IMG/VR virus record: IMGVR_UViG_3300042301_003361
Coordinates: 1-41,626 of that record
Origin: a virus
Direction: 5' to 3' (one strand)
DNA: 41,626 nt
Below are positions 2,612-30,827 of this stretch, piece by piece (the first letter of the stretch is position 1; the number at the start of each line of letters is the position of its first letter). Under the pieces are notes generated by a model. The model was not told the origin of the DNA. It did not search any database and saw only the letters and a program-made list of their open reading frames with translations. The position numbers were made by a program, and so were the translations under genes.

Positions 2612-3061
2612 TTACTTATTTCTTTGCTCTTCTAGTATAGCCTCTATATTTGGCGCTTGCCAAAGTAAAGGTTTGATCCACTTACCATCATCTCTCATAT
2701 ATCCACCTGGACCGAATTTAGCCATATTTGTATTATAAACTTCTACATCTATAGGCTCCATATCAACTCCACATGAATTAGCTGTGCCATTTACTATCAC
2801 TTTGATATCTGCGATGCCATCAACAATTTCAATTAGATCTGGTTCTTGGTCTGCGACAAATGTTAAATTATCTAGTATAACTTGATTACCATTTTCATCA
2901 AGTACAGATAAACCTAATCCATTTACATGCTCGCAAACTTCCTCTAATAAAAGTCTTGCTCTAAGTTTTCGTATTTCTACTGATGGAACTACTGGCTTAT
3001 TAGGAAGTTCCTGTTTAGCCGCAACCATAAAATCTAACGCTCTTTTCTGTTCTATCTCCAT
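2612..3061 (-). CDS. MazG-like nucleotide pyrophosphohydrolase (PRA-PH-like domain)
   Basis: 149 residues from ATG 3061. The all-alpha NTP-pyrophosphatase signature is present: an EExxE motif at residues 40-44 (LLLEEVCE) and a second acidic motif, EIVDGIAD, at 78-85. The stretch VNGTANSCGVD...VEVYNTNMAKFGPGG and the C-terminal WQAPNIEAILEEQ match the phage and bacterial group usually annotated as phosphoribosyl-ATP pyrophosphohydrolase-like. Such enzymes hydrolyse (d)NTPs or alarmones to monophosphates with Mg2+. In phages they are thought to clean the nucleotide pool or lower ppGpp. The gene starts the minus-strand group that leads to uvsX. Confidence 0.75.
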   Translation of the reverse strand: MEIEQKRALDFMVAAKQELPNKPVVPSVEIRKLRARLLLEEVCEHVNGLGLSVLDENGNQVILDNLTFVADQEPDLIEIVDGIADIKVIVNGTANSCGVDMEPIDVEVYNTNMAKFGPGGYMRDDGKWIKPLLWQAPNIEAILEEQRNK

Positions 3062-3122
3062 ATAAAAAAATATGTAGTCTCTCCCACTGTCACGCCATTA
3101 AGGTGACGTTCCGTTTTTATCA

Positions 3123-3614
3123 TTAGAATTTGAATCCAACACCAGCACGAATAGATACCGCACCATCATTGTCTTCATCTTCAACTGTAAAGTTATAAGC
3201 CGCGTCGGCAAATAGACTTACAGTTTGGGTGAGGGCGACTTTAACACCACCGCCAGTTCTAACTACCCATTGGTCTGATTCAAACTCATAGGCACCACCA
3301 GCAAGAGCGTATAGAGATACAGTCTCTGCAACTGGTAGGTAATAAAGAGCATTAGCTCCAACTCCATAAACCTCGTCTTCTAAAACTGTGGCAAATACTT
3401 CACCATATAGGTCGCCAACTAGCTTTGATTCGAGAGCTAAACCACCACCATAAACTTCATTACTGTCGTCAAGAACTACAGAGGCGAAAGCCTTAGCGGT
3501 TAATTCAGATAGTGGTGAAGGAGGTGTGACCGTGGTAACGGCGGGGGTGCCAGCGAATACTGGACTTATAAATGCGACCATCGCAGCTAACATAGATTTA
3601 GTTTTATTCATCAT
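3123..3614 (-). CDS. Secreted outer-membrane beta-barrel-like protein
   Basis: 163 residues. The N-terminus is a classical signal peptide: basic MMNKTKS, a hydrophobic core, and an AxA-type site (SPVFA before GTPA). The mature part is an alternation of short amphipathic strands rich in Gly, Ala, Val and Tyr (YGGGLALESKL, YGEVFATVL, SLYALAGGAYEF, VRTGGGVKVAL) and ends in GVGFKF. A C-terminal Phe is the recognition signal for outer-membrane barrel assembly. Length suits an 8-stranded barrel. It stands alone with its own promoter and leader hairpin, and its wording is more GC-rich than neighbouring genes, suggesting acquisition from a bacterium. A likely job is altering the infected cell surface, for example blocking superinfection; that is inference. 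Confidence 0.7.
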   Translation of the reverse strand: MMNKTKSMLAAMVAFISPVFAGTPAVTTVTPPSPLSELTAKAFASVVLDDSNEVYGGGLALESKLVGDLYGEVFATVLEDEVYGVGANALYYLPVAETVSLYALAGGAYEFESDQWVVRTGGGVKVALTQTVSLFADAAYNFTVEDEDNDGAVSIRAGVGFKF

Positions 3615-19252: not shown

Positions 19253-19839
19253 ATTGTTTCTTTAGATTTTAGAAATTCAATTACTTGATTTCGAGCCTGG
19301 ACTTTCTTAATTTCATCATCTCCAAATCTATTCCAAGAAAATTGAGAATCTGACAATTCTTTTAGTTTTGAAGATCTTTTGGCTTCATCTTCATTTGCTG
19401 GCTGAACTATAGATCCATCTGGATTTATCAAACTTATATTTATTAGATGACCATTCATTGTATTTTTCAGCCAATAGACTTCATCATCTTCGTAGTCGCA
19501 AAACCTAACATCTGTTATTACTGCAACATCTGTAAATTCTTGGACAGATTGTAGAGATTTTTCTATATTTTCTATCCAATACCTTCCTTTTGAAACTTCT
19601 CTTTTCGCGCAGCCATAAGCCACCATTATAGGCCTTAATATATTCTTATTTTCTTTATTGTTAGTAAAAGATGAGAAGCCAAAATTATTAAAAATAAATG
19701 AACTTAATTCATGCTTTAACAAATCTGCAAATGCAAATCTTTTACATTTTAAATTTTCTGCTACAAAAAATTCTTTAGCAAATTCGTAGAATGAATCCTT
19801 TCCGCTAGTAGCCGAACCGGTTAAACCAATTACTTTCAT
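19243..19839 (-). CDS. Deoxynucleoside monophosphate kinase
   Basis: 198 residues. P-loop at the N-terminus (IGLTGSATSGKDSF, residues 4-17), then RFAFADLLKHELS, the substrate-binding helix pattern of phage T4 gp1-type kinases, and VITDVRFCDYEDDEV, a Walker-B-like strand with the DVR motif. The family phosphorylates dNMPs (in T4: dTMP, dGMP and 5-hydroxymethyl-dCMP). The ATG overlaps the RNase HI stop (ATGA), so the two are translated together and share the promoter at 20252. Confidence 0.85.
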   Translation of the reverse strand: MKVIGLTGSATSGKDSFYEFAKEFFVAENLKCKRFAFADLLKHELSSFIFNNFGFSSFTNNKENKNILRPIMVAYGCAKREVSKGRYWIENIEKSLQSVQEFTDVAVITDVRFCDYEDDEVYWLKNTMNGHLINISLINPDGSIVQPANEDEAKRSSKLKELSDSQFSWNRFGDDEIKKVQARNQVIEFLKSKETIWK

Positions 19840-20246
19840 TTTGAAGATGCTAGATTATCTGCCAACTCGTTATACTCATTTCCGTTATGTCCCTTAACCC
19901 ATTCAAAGTCAACACACTTCATTCTCTGAACTTCTTTGTCCAGAAGAGACCATAGATCAGTATTTTTATTCCTCTTCCAATTTTTTGTCATCGTTCCGAT
20001 AACGTACTGCGAGTCGGTGATTACCTTAACCAAGGAGTTGTTAGGACAGCGTTTTAACGCTTCTAAAACCGCAGTAATTTCCATTCTGTTATTAGTTGTG
20101 TTCGTAGCTTTGCCGGAAGACATAGTATGTCCTGGGATGGCTGAATTTATCAAAACGTAACCCCACCCGCCTCGGTTATTTTTGTCTCCATTATTCATGC
20201 AAGAACCATCAGTGTAAACTGTAAAATCGTAAAAAATATTCTTCAT
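19836..20246 (-). CDS. rnhA: Ribonuclease HI
   Basis: 136 residues from ATG 20246. The four catalytic carboxylates are Asp13 (YTDGSC), Glu56 (NNRMEITAV), Asp78 (ITDSQYV) and Asp130 (NELADNLA), with His120 in KGHNG nearby. It degrades the RNA strand of RNA-DNA hybrids, for example primers. The frame is open to 20303, but the well-formed promoter at 20252-20279 ends 5 nt before ATG 20246, so the upstream codons are unlikely to be used. First gene of the RNase H-dNMP kinase transcript. Confidence 0.92.
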   Translation of the reverse strand: MKNIFYDFTVYTDGSCMNNGDKNNRGGWGYVLINSAIPGHTMSSGKATNTTNNRMEITAVLEALKRCPNNSLVKVITDSQYVIGTMTKNWKRNKNTDLWSLLDKEVQRMKCVDFEWVKGHNGNEYNELADNLASSK

Positions 20247-20251
20247 TCCAA

Positions 20252-20279
20252 AATATAAATTATTTAACATGAAAGTCAA
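20252..20279 (-). promoter_or_regulatory. Promoter of rnhA (leaderless)
   Basis: Minus strand: TTGACT (20279-20274), 16 bp, TATATT (20257-20252). The start codon lies 5 nt beyond the -10, so the mRNA should begin at or beside the ATG. A second TTGACT occurs 22 nt further upstream in the same orientation. Confidence 0.7.
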
Positions 20280-20303: not shown

Positions 20304-21031
20304 GTTTTATAAATTATTTTACTATTAAGAGATATCTAAATCTGAAAGATTTGGTTATCTCAAGAGGATCGTGAGATCCTCTTAACTGTAACGCTATATA
20401 GCGTGTTAGCTATAATAGCGTAAGCTACAAGGCGTATTAGCTAATATAAGCGTATTCGCTATATAGCGTTATTGATAAATACTTCGTATTTCTCAGGAAG
20501 CGCTTAATCTTTCAGATTAATCACTTCCTTAATAATAATTAAAATTATTATCAGGAAGAAATAGAGAGCGCCGTTGGCGCTATCTATGCCCTTCTCTCGT
20601 TGCCTCGTTCAGGGCAGGGGGTTTCTTGCCCCTGATAGATTTTTATCTAATAGAGTTCAGTGAGCCAGAGCCAATTTATGTAATCTACCTTTCCTCTCTA
20701 GCCTGTCGGCAGTTCGGTTTAGACGTGAGTCTAATGCAGAAACTTCACTACCCTGTGGGGGACTTGGCGGAGATTCGTTACCAAGCAACCGATCAGTCTG
20801 CCCAGCCAGTTTATTAGACTTTCGGCCTGTAGATACTACCCAATCGGTTTATTCGTTTCTAATCTCGGCGGCTTTGAGAATTTCTTCTCTCGGCTGTGCG
20901 TTGTCAAACCCCTGAAGACAGAGCGCCGCGATTACAATTTGGATCAACTCCCGGAATTGAAGCTTCCCGGAGCTTTGAACTTGGAGTACCAAGTTCCTAT
21001 GTCTTGCCCGCAAATACATGCGTTCATCATA
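20304..21031 (-). ncRNA. Candidate large structured RNA (gene-free, many hairpins)
   Basis: About 730 bp with no credible gene, visibly richer in G+C than its flanks. Perfect stem-loops include 20338-20352 (6 bp), 20362-20383 (9 bp, 4-nt loop), 20477-20491, 20504-20520, 20524-20558 (about 15 bp in two segments), 20567-20581, 20636-20649, 20876-20889 and 20977-20996 (8 bp, 4-nt loop); 20609-20635 is a stem with one bulge. A promoter at 21032-21059 points into it on the minus strand, which is why I give that strand; the hairpins themselves do not fix it. Size and a setting in a phage recall the GOLLD and ROOL classes of giant ornate RNAs, but I cannot match it to either by eye. No clear terminator precedes the rnhA promoter. 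Confidence 0.6.
20389..20472. repeat. Cluster of short GCGTA/TAGCT repeats
   Basis: Five degenerate units of roughly 14-18 bp, each centred on AGCGT followed by TATT or T(T)AGCT. The outer units contain the palindromes ACGCTATATAGCGT (20391-20404) and CGCTATATAGCG (20457-20468). They could be the arms of a multi-hairpin RNA or iteron-like protein-binding sites. Confidence 0.55.
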
Positions 21032-21059
21032 ATTCTACTCTGTATGTAAAATAAATCAA
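21032..21059 (-). promoter_or_regulatory. Promoter reading into the structured region
   Basis: Minus strand: TTGATT (21059-21054), 16 bp, TAGAAT (21037-21032). The predicted start is near 21025, just before the first hairpins. Its -35 lies 8 bp from the -35 of the divergent promoter at 21068. Confidence 0.55.
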
Positions 21060-21067
21060 GAAAAAAG

Positions 21068-21095
21068 TTGACATTTTTTCAAAAAAAACTATAGT
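21068..21095 (+). promoter_or_regulatory. Promoter of the phosphatase/lipoprotein operon (leaderless)
   Basis: Plus strand: TTGACA (21068-21073), 16 bp made of T6-C-A8-C, TATAGT (21090-21095). ATG 21101 lies 5 nt beyond the -10, the same distance as at rnhA, so a leaderless mRNA is expected. This is the closest match to consensus in the window. Confidence 0.75.
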
Positions 21096-21100
21096 TCGAC

Positions 21101-21574
21101 ATGAATATAACAGAACTAATCATTTCAGAGACATTTAGGAACTCTCAGAAAAACGTCTGCAACGTAAAAAGAAGGGACGTTGCCTACTGGGCAACAGAAC
21201 TAAATCCAGAAACAGATATCTGGATTTCGATTGGCGAGCCAGAATTACTAGAAAGTGTAATAACTAATCCAATATTAAATAAAGTACCATCTTTACATAT
21301 TCAATTTTGGGATGTTGAAATAGATACTTTTGGAGTATTAAATGAAAAATACCCTGTCGCCTCAGATGAGGAGATAAAAACTATATTTGATTTTATTTTA
21401 AAACATAAAGATAAAAACATTTTAGTTAATTGCGCGGCTGGAATATCAAGATCAGGGGCTATTGCCGCCTTTTGTTCTGATATTCTCGGATATAATTGGA
21501 TTGGAGTTGGCTTGGAAAGAGCAGTTCCAAATAAATACATATATAACAAATTGATAAAATATCATGAAAACTAA
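21101..21574 (+). CDS. Tyrosine/dual-specificity phosphatase-like protein
   Basis: 157 residues. The P-loop VNCAAGISRSG (109-119) has the C-x5-R signature with nucleophile Cys111 and Arg117, preceded by a strand and followed by a helix as in dual-specificity phosphatases; an upstream acidic stretch (QFWDVEIDTFG) could hold the general-acid Asp. It is compact, like other phage and poxvirus DSPs. Substrate unknown: phosphoproteins, RNA 5' ends or sugar phosphates are all possible in this superfamily. Transcribed from its own near-consensus promoter with the lipoprotein gene, which it overlaps by 11 nt. Confidence 0.75.
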   Translation: MNITELIISETFRNSQKNVCNVKRRDVAYWATELNPETDIWISIGEPELLESVITNPILNKVPSLHIQFWDVEIDTFGVLNEKYPVASDEEIKTIFDFILKHKDKNILVNCAAGISRSGAIAAFCSDILGYNWIGVGLERAVPNKYIYNKLIKYHEN

Positions 21575-22013: not shown

Positions 22014-22892
22014 TTAAGGAATTAAAGAAGATGATGACGAGGACGATCCGCTTATATCAATTCCGCTTCCACTAATTCCACCACCACTTCCTGTTATATC
22101 AAAAGAACTATCCGATGCAAAGTCTGAGGTATAATCAGAATTGTAATCTGAGTTATAATCCGATGCAAAGTCTGAAGCGTAATCAGATGTATATTCAGAA
22201 GTATAGTATGACGGATCGTAATCTGACGAATCATAAGAACTGAGATAATAATCAGATGATTGATCCTGAGAATCTTGGGAATCTTGGGAATCCTCGGAAC
22301 TATCATCAGAGCTTTCGTAAGAACTATAATCGCTACTATCAGATTCGTCTGACGATTCTTCACTTGAAAAATTACTATCGTCACCTATAAATGTCGGATA
22401 AAAGAATATATCAGATTTCAATTTTTGATTTATATCAACATAATCAGAAGAGAATATAATCTCTGCTAATTCTATACAAGTTTCACTTTCATTATATTCT
22501 GGGACTTCGCTATCTGCATAAACTTTAGCGTTTAAAACAGTAACCATCGCTTTATTTGATGTGTAATCACCGGTTCCCATTTTCTTATTTAAGAAACCTT
22601 GTTTATAATGTTCTTTTTCTGGTTCAGTTAAATCTTCATAAATAGTTCTATTATTATGATTTATCTTAACAAAAATTTTATTAGTTTTTTCAGTGACTTC
22701 TAATATAGTCAAGTTACTCTCTAAAATATCTTTTTCGGCGCCTTCTACATCTATATAACTTTTATTTAAGTTAGTAGGATCTAAAAAATGAAGCTTACCT
22801 TCACTAACTAATAATTTGCATTTTTTACTATCTTTATTAAACCCAGCGGAATGAATAGAGAAAGGTTTTTTTTCTAAATAGTAATATTCCAT
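22014..22892 (-). CDS. Tail-associated protein with Ser/Asp/Tyr repeat tail
   Basis: 292 residues. Residues 1-172 form an ordered part whose C-terminal half (VLNAKVYADSEV...ETCIELAEIIF...DINQKLKSDIFF) resembles the end of the next gene upstream, so the two are paralogues. From about residue 173 the sequence is low complexity: SSD/SSE runs, SQDSQDSQD, then repeats of Y-x-SD and F-A-SD, ending in Gly/Ser. At DNA level TCCGATGCAAAGTCTGA occurs twice (22111-22127, 22159-22175). The tail is strongly acidic and could bind Ca2+ or act as a flexible spacer. Last gene of the tail run, so a fibre or adaptor role is likely but not shown. Confidence 0.65.
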   Translation of the reverse strand: MEYYYLEKKPFSIHSAGFNKDSKKCKLLVSEGKLHFLDPTNLNKSYIDVEGAEKDILESNLTILEVTEKTNKIFVKINHNNRTIYEDLTEPEKEHYKQGFLNKKMGTGDYTSNKAMVTVLNAKVYADSEVPEYNESETCIELAEIIFSSDYVDINQKLKSDIFFYPTFIGDDSNFSSEESSDESDSSDYSSYESSDDSSEDSQDSQDSQDQSSDYYLSSYDSSDYDPSYYTSEYTSDYASDFASDYNSDYNSDYTSDFASDSSFDITGSGGGISGSGIDISGSSSSSSSLIP

Positions 22893-29063: not shown

Positions 29064-29178
29064 TCCTTTTATCCCCGTACCTAAAGTATTTTACACTAAG
29101 TTAAGAAAAGAAAGCTCAATTAAAATAATTTGAAAAAAAATTTCAACTTTGAATAATTATGTTGTAATAAAATATATA

Positions 29179-29592
29179 ATGAATTTAGAATCTATAAGCA
29201 AGCAGTATAACTTTGATGGCGGAATGGTTTATTCATGTCAATATCATGTGATTTTTGCGACTAAGTATCGTAGAAAAGTTTTAATAGATGGGGTTGATAC
29301 TGAATTTAAACGTATTTGCCTAGAAAACCAAGAGAAATTGCACTTCAAAATTTTGGAAATGGAAGTGATGCCTGACCATATTCATCTTTTAGTTGAGTCG
29401 AACCCTAAAATTGGCATCTACGATCAAGTAAATAGAATTAAGGGTTTGACAAGTCATGAGCTAAGAAATAAATTCCCCTGGCTCAAAAAGCGCATTCCAA
29501 CGCTTTGGACTCGTTCTAAATTTATCTCTACTGTCGGTGCTGTTTCATTGGAAGTTGTTAAAAAATATATAGAGGATCAAAAAAAAGTTTAA
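29179..29592 (+). CDS. tnpA: IS200/IS605 TnpA transposase (HUH, Y1)
   Basis: 137 residues from ATG 29179; a TTG at 29149 would add ten residues and is less likely. The HUH motif is MPDHIHLLVE with His67 and His69, and the single catalytic Tyr is Tyr130 in VVKKYIEDQ. Length is standard. TnpA nicks and rejoins single-stranded element ends recognised as hairpins. All catalytic residues are present, so it may be active. Its TAA overlaps the tnpB ATG by one base. Confidence 0.92.
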   Translation: MNLESISKQYNFDGGMVYSCQYHVIFATKYRRKVLIDGVDTEFKRICLENQEKLHFKILEMEVMPDHIHLLVESNPKIGIYDQVNRIKGLTSHELRNKFPWLKKRIPTLWTRSKFISTVGAVSLEVVKKYIEDQKKV

Positions 29593-30827
29593 TGAACGAG
29601 CAAAAGAAATACCAGATTAAGAAAACGCTACTTGAAACTAAGTCGCGCCGTAAAGGTATGTCTTGTAAGGTTTTTGAACTAAAAGTTGATGAAAGTAAAT
29701 TATCAAAAAAGAAAGATGAATCATTAGAACAAATTTTCAAAGAGGCGAAGTGGATTTACAATGCGGCGCTGGATTCTGATGATGTTTTTAAATTTGAAGT
29801 TGGCTCGGCTATAAAAGTTAAAGTTTTCAACCCGGAGACAAATCTATGTGATGTTGAAGAAATTCGCCCATTATCTATTGGTAGTCAAATTAAGCAATCT
29901 ATAGTTCAGAGAATAAAACAAAATATTATAAATTTGTCAAAGGCTAAAGCTAAAGGGGTGAGGGTCGGCGCTTTAAAATTTAAAAAAGAGATCAACTCTA
30001 TCCACCTTAAACAATTTGGAACGACTTTTAAAATTGGGAAGAGCTTCGTTTCGGTTCAAAATATTGGCAAAATAAAAGTTAATGGTTTACATCAAATTCG
30101 CGCAGGATATGAAATAGCTAACGCTACATTGGTAAAAAAAGCCTCTGGATATTATATCTTGATTACAATATTTGAACCAAAATCTCAGATTGAAACTTCT
30201 GGGCAAATTGGTTTAGATTTTGGGATTAAAGATGCGATTGTTGATTCAAACGGTAATAAATTTAATTGGAAGTTTAATACAAATAAGATCAAGCGTGATT
30301 GTCGTAGATTCTCAAAGAAGAAAAAAGGCTCTAAAAACAAAATAAAAGCTCAGAAACGTCTTGGGAAATCTTATGAAAAAATCACTCGTCAAAAAGATGA
30401 TGCAGCAAATAAATTTGTATCAACTCTTAAAAAGTATGAAAAAGTTGTAATTCAAGATGAGAATTTAAAAGGCTGGCAAGCAGGATTATTCGGAAAGCAA
30501 GTTCAAGAATCAATTTTGGGAAGAATAAAGGCTAAGATTAAAAACTTAGAGACTTCTCAAGTTATAAATAGATTTTTTCCGACTACCCAATTATGTCCAA
30601 AATGCGAAATTAAAAATAAAATTCCATTAAGCCAACGAGATTATTCGTGTTGTTGTGGTTTCTATCATTTTGATAGAGACGTAAAGGCAGCTCAAGTAAT
30701 TTTAACTTATGGAACAATTCTTGGGGAACCCAAGACTAAGCCTGCGGAGAAAGCGACCTCTTTTTATAACACTTTTAGTGTTTTATTTAAGTCGAATTCA
30801 TTGAAACAGGAAGCCTCAATCCTTTAG
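29592..30827 (+). CDS. tnpB: TnpB RNA-guided nuclease
   Basis: 411 residues. RuvC residues: Asp209 (IGLDFGIKDAI), Glu290 (VVIQDENLKGW) and the HFDRDVKAAQ motif (Asp361/Asp363). The zinc finger is formed by CPKC (335-338) and the CCCGF cluster (353-355). The N-terminal WED/REC-like part is complete, and the length is normal for the family. TnpB is the ancestor of Cas12 and uses an RNA from the element's right end to cut the empty site, which helps retain the element. The 3' part of the gene overlaps that RNA. Confidence 0.92.
   Translation: MNEQKKYQIKKTLLETKSRRKGMSCKVFELKVDESKLSKKKDESLEQIFKEAKWIYNAALDSDDVFKFEVGSAIKVKVFNPETNLCDVEEIRPLSIGSQIKQSIVQRIKQNIINLSKAKAKGVRVGALKFKKEINSIHLKQFGTTFKIGKSFVSVQNIGKIKVNGLHQIRAGYEIANATLVKKASGYYILITIFEPKSQIETSGQIGLDFGIKDAIVDSNGNKFNWKFNTNKIKRDCRRFSKKKKGSKNKIKAQKRLGKSYEKITRQKDDAANKFVSTLKKYEKVVIQDENLKGWQAGLFGKQVQESILGRIKAKIKNLETSQVINRFFPTTQLCPKCEIKNKIPLSQRDYSCCCGFYHFDRDVKAAQVILTYGTILGEPKTKPAEKATSFYNTFSVLFKSNSLKQEASIL

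Follow-up and report, generated by a model that had tools for sequence, protein, structure and literature searches.

The window, by which we mean the whole stretch of DNA analyzed, is a linear viral record of 41,626 bases and is probably a piece of a larger phage. Its gene content includes a class I ribonucleotide reductase, a UvsX-like recombinase, sugar-modifying enzymes, and an IS605-type transposase pair; a number of large proteins that matched no family were taken as structural. The ribonucleotide reductase showed 60–68% identity to many viral contigs. Relatives of an 851-aa protein and of the phosphatase-like protein described below were absent from the viral contigs and named phages searched, and two further large proteins were without relatives among the named phages; the phage lineage of the window is poorly sampled. 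The IS605-type pair lies at 29149–30827 (+) and consists of a TnpB-like protein (PF01385, PF07282) and a small protein resembling TnpA by eye.

Between two divergent transcription units lies a gene-free island (20304–21060, not assigned to a strand) that has no credible ORF and, folded as a whole stretch, gives z-scores of −8.6 on the plus strand and −8.3 on the minus strand. The island spans about 750–850 bases and is bordered on the left by an RNase H gene on the minus strand (19836–20246, with the long ORF extending to 20303; PF00075, E = 1.1e-32) and on the right by a dual-specificity/tyrosine phosphatase-like gene on the plus strand (21101–21574), of which the match to PF00782 (E = 1.2e-5) is below the Pfam cut-off and that to PF13350 (E = 7.8e-5) is just above its own. 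The left edge is probably 20247 and not 20304, with RNase H starting at an internal ATG (20246), because the RNase H domain starts only with residue 27 in the long ORF and because a promoter-like site at 20279–20252 sits inside that ORF; with this start, the gap is therefore closer to 850 bases. Beyond the phosphatase-like gene, the gene at 22014–22892 holds degenerate 12/24-bp tandem repeats at 22110–22205.

The longest start-to-stop ORFs in 20304–21031 have 63, 56, and 52 aa. These three had no Pfam or PHROG family and scored poorly on the codon usage of the phage itself, a test that is weak because some antisense ORFs score well too, and the stop-to-stop frames of the island also matched no Pfam family. 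The claim of the initial annotation that 20304–21031 contains no credible gene was thus borne out.

Composition and predicted structure of the island

The island contains 10 perfect stem-loops (arms of at least 6 bp, loops of 3–8 bases) compared with a mean of 1.1 (sd 1.0) and a maximum of 5 in 500 shuffles, in agreement with the count of at least nine given initially. Its GC content is the maximum of the window at scales of 200 and 400 bases (0.505 and 0.492, compared with at most 0.485 and 0.468 elsewhere), so that the G+C enrichment reported at first holds at these scales, whereas at 730 bases it is equaled by a region near 2834–3600 (0.418). This second GC-rich patch (about 2834–3600, 0.42 across 730 bases) overlies a small gene at 3123–3614 (−) for a putative secreted or outer-membrane protein. 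Folding of 277 tiles across the window placed the lowest z-score, −6.1, in the island, the remaining tiles having a mean of −0.3 (sd 1.2). The initial description of the island was therefore right in substance, although not in its uniformity, as the structure excess is confined to 20320–20640.

The left half is a chain of seven abutting stem-loops joined by linkers of 0–5 bases (20320–20640), which gave z-scores of −10.9 on the plus strand and −8.3 on the minus strand, with none of the 100 shuffles reaching as low. The folding predictions place hairpin 1 at 20329–20361, with an apical AATCT-GAA-AGATT, the 13 bases of which reappear inverted in hairpin 5 (20506–20518), and hairpin 2 at 20362–20383, with a perfect 9-bp stem and a GTGA loop on the plus strand. 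Hairpin 3 (20388–20472) is a long arm with a perfect outer stem of 15 bp, and it houses about 4.8 imperfect copies of a palindromic, iteron-like 16-bp unit, GCTATATAGCGTATTA (20393–20469; TRF score of 78). Near-exact 8-mer recurrences numbered 31 compared with 9.3 in shuffles (P < 0.001); the array is imperfect, and one long hairpin explains it equally. Hairpin 4 (20474–20494) has the core AAATAC-TTC-GTATTT, hairpin 5 (20495–20529) is formed by AGGAAG..TTAATCT-TTC-AGATTAA..CTTCCT, the AT-rich hairpin 6 (20531–20552) has a stem of 8–9 bp, and hairpin 7 (20554–20595) has the tip AGCGCC-GTT-GGCGCT. Several hairpins of the chain have three-base loops, and G-U pairs are sparse, at 9 of 117 pairs on the plus strand and 4 of 115 on the minus strand.

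The right half is a GC-rich domain of about 390 bases (20640–21031; GC of 0.468 compared with 0.322 for the window), which folds near the expectation from its composition, with z-scores of −1.1 on the plus strand and −1.8 on the minus strand. Its best-defined subdomain lies at 20763–20873 on the minus strand, with the arms 20767–20793 and 20843–20869, and a perfect 8-bp hairpin, GAACTTGG-AGTA-CCAAGTTC, is predicted at 20977–20996. Folding better than composition predicts, which is taken as a criterion for structured RNA, was thus found in the left half and not clearly in the right half. Two tmRNA genes from distantly related phages served as a yardstick; their GC content is also above that of their surroundings, and their z-scores were −2.9 and −3.4. 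Compared with these real RNA genes, the hairpin half is in excess and the GC-rich one does not quite reach their level. The plus-strand fold of the island is closed by a pairing of 20314–20322 with 21046–21054, which is weak (P = 0.06), and the ends of the island are near-inverted (TTATTTTAC/GTAAAATAA, P = 0.06).

Promoter-like sites and indications of the transcribed strand

The initial annotation had described a promoter pointing into the island. Such a site does exist, but weakly and on the minus strand (TTGATT-16-TAGAAT, 21059–21032, predicted start at about 21025), and with 9 of 12 matches it may have arisen by chance. In the region, 10 promoter-like sites of this grade were found compared with about 3 expected by chance. 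Both flanking genes have better promoter-like sites of their own 5 bases before the ATG, which are the strong TTGACA-16-TATAGT (21068–21095, +, 11 of 12 matches) for the phosphatase gene and TTGACT-16-TATATT (20279–20252, −, 10 of 12 matches, ahead of the internal ATG) for RNase H. The island therefore lies beyond the two units, and a leader role is improbable. The −10 box located exactly 5 bases before the ATG in both genes (20252–20246 and 21095–21101) would yield leaderless mRNAs, and most other genes in the window have A/T-rich sequence upstream and no obvious Shine-Dalgarno motif.

With respect to the strand, folding of both strands, as proposed initially, indicated strong structure in the left half on plus and minus alike, although the right half was near the shuffle level; the plus strand was more stable on the left and the minus strand on the right, and neither was favored overall. 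Among unpaired bases, 46% are A on the minus strand compared with 28% on the plus strand. A-rich unpaired positions are common in many structured RNAs, and the bias here may reflect the strand skew that the region shows in general. The hints of the minus strand, which are the A-rich unpaired bases and the inward promoter-like site, are weak.

Search for homologues and for known RNA classes

No credible match to the island was found by blastn against phage, plasmid, and E. coli records (E. coli with the right half only), and exact and back-translated patterns detected no island homologue in viral contigs. A 17-base pattern match in one viral contig was a chance word in an unrelated GC-rich phage (L126), and a single 20-base match in bacterial genomes was also attributed to chance, its flanks being dissimilar. 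Exact-pattern scans are blind to homologues below about 90% identity, and the absence of homologues is therefore unproven. Relatives were recruited via the ribonucleotide reductase and RNase H; the phosphatase and a structural gene gave none. Only chance matches were obtained by nhmmer across 2.6 Mb of DNA of the relatives and by blastn across 36 whole viral records, and a single-sequence covariance model (R1) of the best subdomain (20763–20873) matched only itself in 47 viral records. Overall, no island homologue was detected in about 50 whole viral records, and the window itself contains no other copy. At the corresponding divergent junction, beside the same kinase gene, two distant relatives (G003 and G006) have an unremarkable AT-rich spacer of 260–300 bp. 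Judging from the sequences compared, the island appears to be an orphan at present.

Rfam scans of the window at the gathering threshold and at E up to 10 gave only sub-threshold chance matches (such as atoC, SAH, and BTnc231). Membership in the GOLLD, ROOL, OLE, or HEARO classes, raised initially, found no match with the Rfam covariance models. The GOLLD model, which represents the conserved 3′ region and has a cut-off of 150 bits, did not match the window even at E of 10, and its direct search was one in which the control genomes gave nothing over the cut-off and thus provided no positive control. The ROOL model (RF03087) matched the window neither in the Rfam scans, on which the weight rests, nor in a direct search that was likewise without a control match. 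OLE and HEARO were unmatched in the window at the gathering threshold and at E up to 10. Neither ARAGORN nor Rfam found a tRNA or tmRNA in the 41.6-kb window, and a tmRNA identity of the island, which would call for a tRNA-like domain and a tag frame, was rejected accordingly. The island is not GOLLD, ROOL, OLE, or HEARO as modeled in Rfam, and the results do not support placing it in a known class of giant RNAs.

Discussion

The island is gene-free, strongly non-randomly palindromic, GC-rich, and outside both neighboring promoter–ATG units. We tentatively favor, with somewhat less than even confidence, the explanation that an orphan non-coding RNA, structured and probably read from the minus strand, is encoded here, has its own promoter, and acts in trans. 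Its transcription, strand, ends, and action, as we infer them, would be as follows. The RNA would be transcribed from a promoter near 21059–21032, arranged back to back with that of the phosphatase gene, and would end ahead of the RNase H promoter; its 5′ domain would be the GC-rich part of about 400 nt, and the chain of abutting hairpins, seven in number and about 320 nt long, would follow on the 3′ side. These hairpins might stack into a compact, nuclease-resistant body. During infection, this body could act in trans, either as a scaffold or as a decoy, on the ribosome or on a protein of the host or phage. Consistent with this explanation are the hairpin excess and folding z-scores far past those of shuffles, the raised GC within an AT-rich genome together with the absence of coding evidence, and the tmRNA yardsticks, which are outdone by the hairpin half and are likewise GC-elevated. 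The A-rich unpaired bases and the sole inward promoter-like site at the edge point to the minus strand, and the promoter-like sites of the neighbors lie beyond the island, so that it is not obviously a leader. On the other hand, no homologue and hence no covariation was found, folding picks no strand, G-U pairs are few on both strands in the left half, the GC-rich half lacks significant structure, the promoter pointing inward is weak, a minus-strand RNA would have no clear terminator, and the A bias may mirror the regional skew.

It is rather doubtful that the island represents a large phage RNA of a new class, built from a chain of abutting hairpins and a GC-rich domain, unrelated to GOLLD and ROOL, and acting as a folded body in infection. 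To our knowledge, the large structured phage RNAs described so far are few and have no settled function; a further independent class, if true, would help to reveal the purpose of such RNAs. The island is a genuine oddity with strong statistics behind it and no relative known so far; it is not yet evidence for a new giant RNA, and its present status is that of an orphan candidate.

The main rival, which we consider less probable in itself yet nearly as likely as an RNA gene, is a cis-acting DNA site at the junction of the divergent operons, such as a replication origin or a regulator-binding region, in which the palindromes and the iteron-like array would matter as DNA, with the duplex being melted or cruciforms being bound. 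The strength of the structure on plus and minus alike, the scarcity of G-U pairs, the confinement of the structure to the left 320 bases, as a palindrome cluster would also give, the three-base loops, and the about 4.8 copies of the palindromic 16-bp unit, far above shuffles, all fit such a site, as does its position between divergent promoters. The 16-bp palindromic tandem repeats beside AT-rich hairpins are also a trait shared with iteron-type replication origins, and an RNase H gene adjoins the island and a UvsX-like recombinase is encoded in the window, both being enzymes relevant to origin R-loops in other phages. Unlike iteron-type origins, however, the island has neither a GC-skew switch nor an adjoining initiator gene; a DNA site leaves the 390 GC-rich bases of the right half unaccounted for, and there is no similar cluster at the corresponding junction of the relatives. 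If the island is a DNA site, it would mark a likely origin or control hub of a lineage of phages that has hardly any characterized relatives.

Foreign or decaying DNA without selected function is improbable. According to this explanation, a GC-rich fragment and palindromic debris, perhaps of a non-autonomous mobile element, would have settled at a permissive divergent junction, which agrees with the lack of any match to the island in the relatives and in all collections searched, with a base composition unlike that of the phage, with the near-inverted ends, despite their P of 0.06, and with the IS605-type element in the same window. However, seven intact, near-perfect hairpins in series would decay if unselected, no known element or gene remnant was matched, and the window holds no second copy. 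A long structured leader acting as a cis-regulator of the minus-strand RNase H–kinase operon is very unlikely, since a better promoter-like site precedes the internal ATG of RNase H by 5 bases and no Rfam riboswitch or leader reached the threshold, although the weak minus-strand promoter at 21059 would read into RNase H.

Hardly credible is the idea that the island belongs, as a strongly diverged member, to GOLLD, ROOL, or some other known class of giant RNA. The size and two-part build of the island do recall GOLLD RNA (RF02032), which is phage-borne, about 800 nt long, and non-coding, with a less conserved 5′ part (residues 1–420) and a universally conserved 3′ part (421–833), and the genes of which are often, though not always, near tRNA islands (PMC12286853). 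In contrast, the island has no match to the GOLLD model and no tRNA island nearby, and its extreme structure is a simple hairpin chain, the other half being not significantly folded. It resembles ROOL RNA in phage setting and similar length, and again differs in the lack of a model match and of tRNA neighbors. OLE and HEARO are comparable as large structured bacterial RNAs, the models of which the island does not match.

Phage tmRNA is similar to the island as a long GC-elevated RNA gene, and distant relatives of the window phage have one. Such genes were observed at L091:2822–3260 (−), L100:1898–2311 (−), and L109:9119–9188 (−); two of them encode near-identical 25-aa tags (EAEYIFNNADEFLAGFEEES[Y/C]ALAA), and in the third the match to the Rfam tmRNA model spans an oddly short 70 bases.
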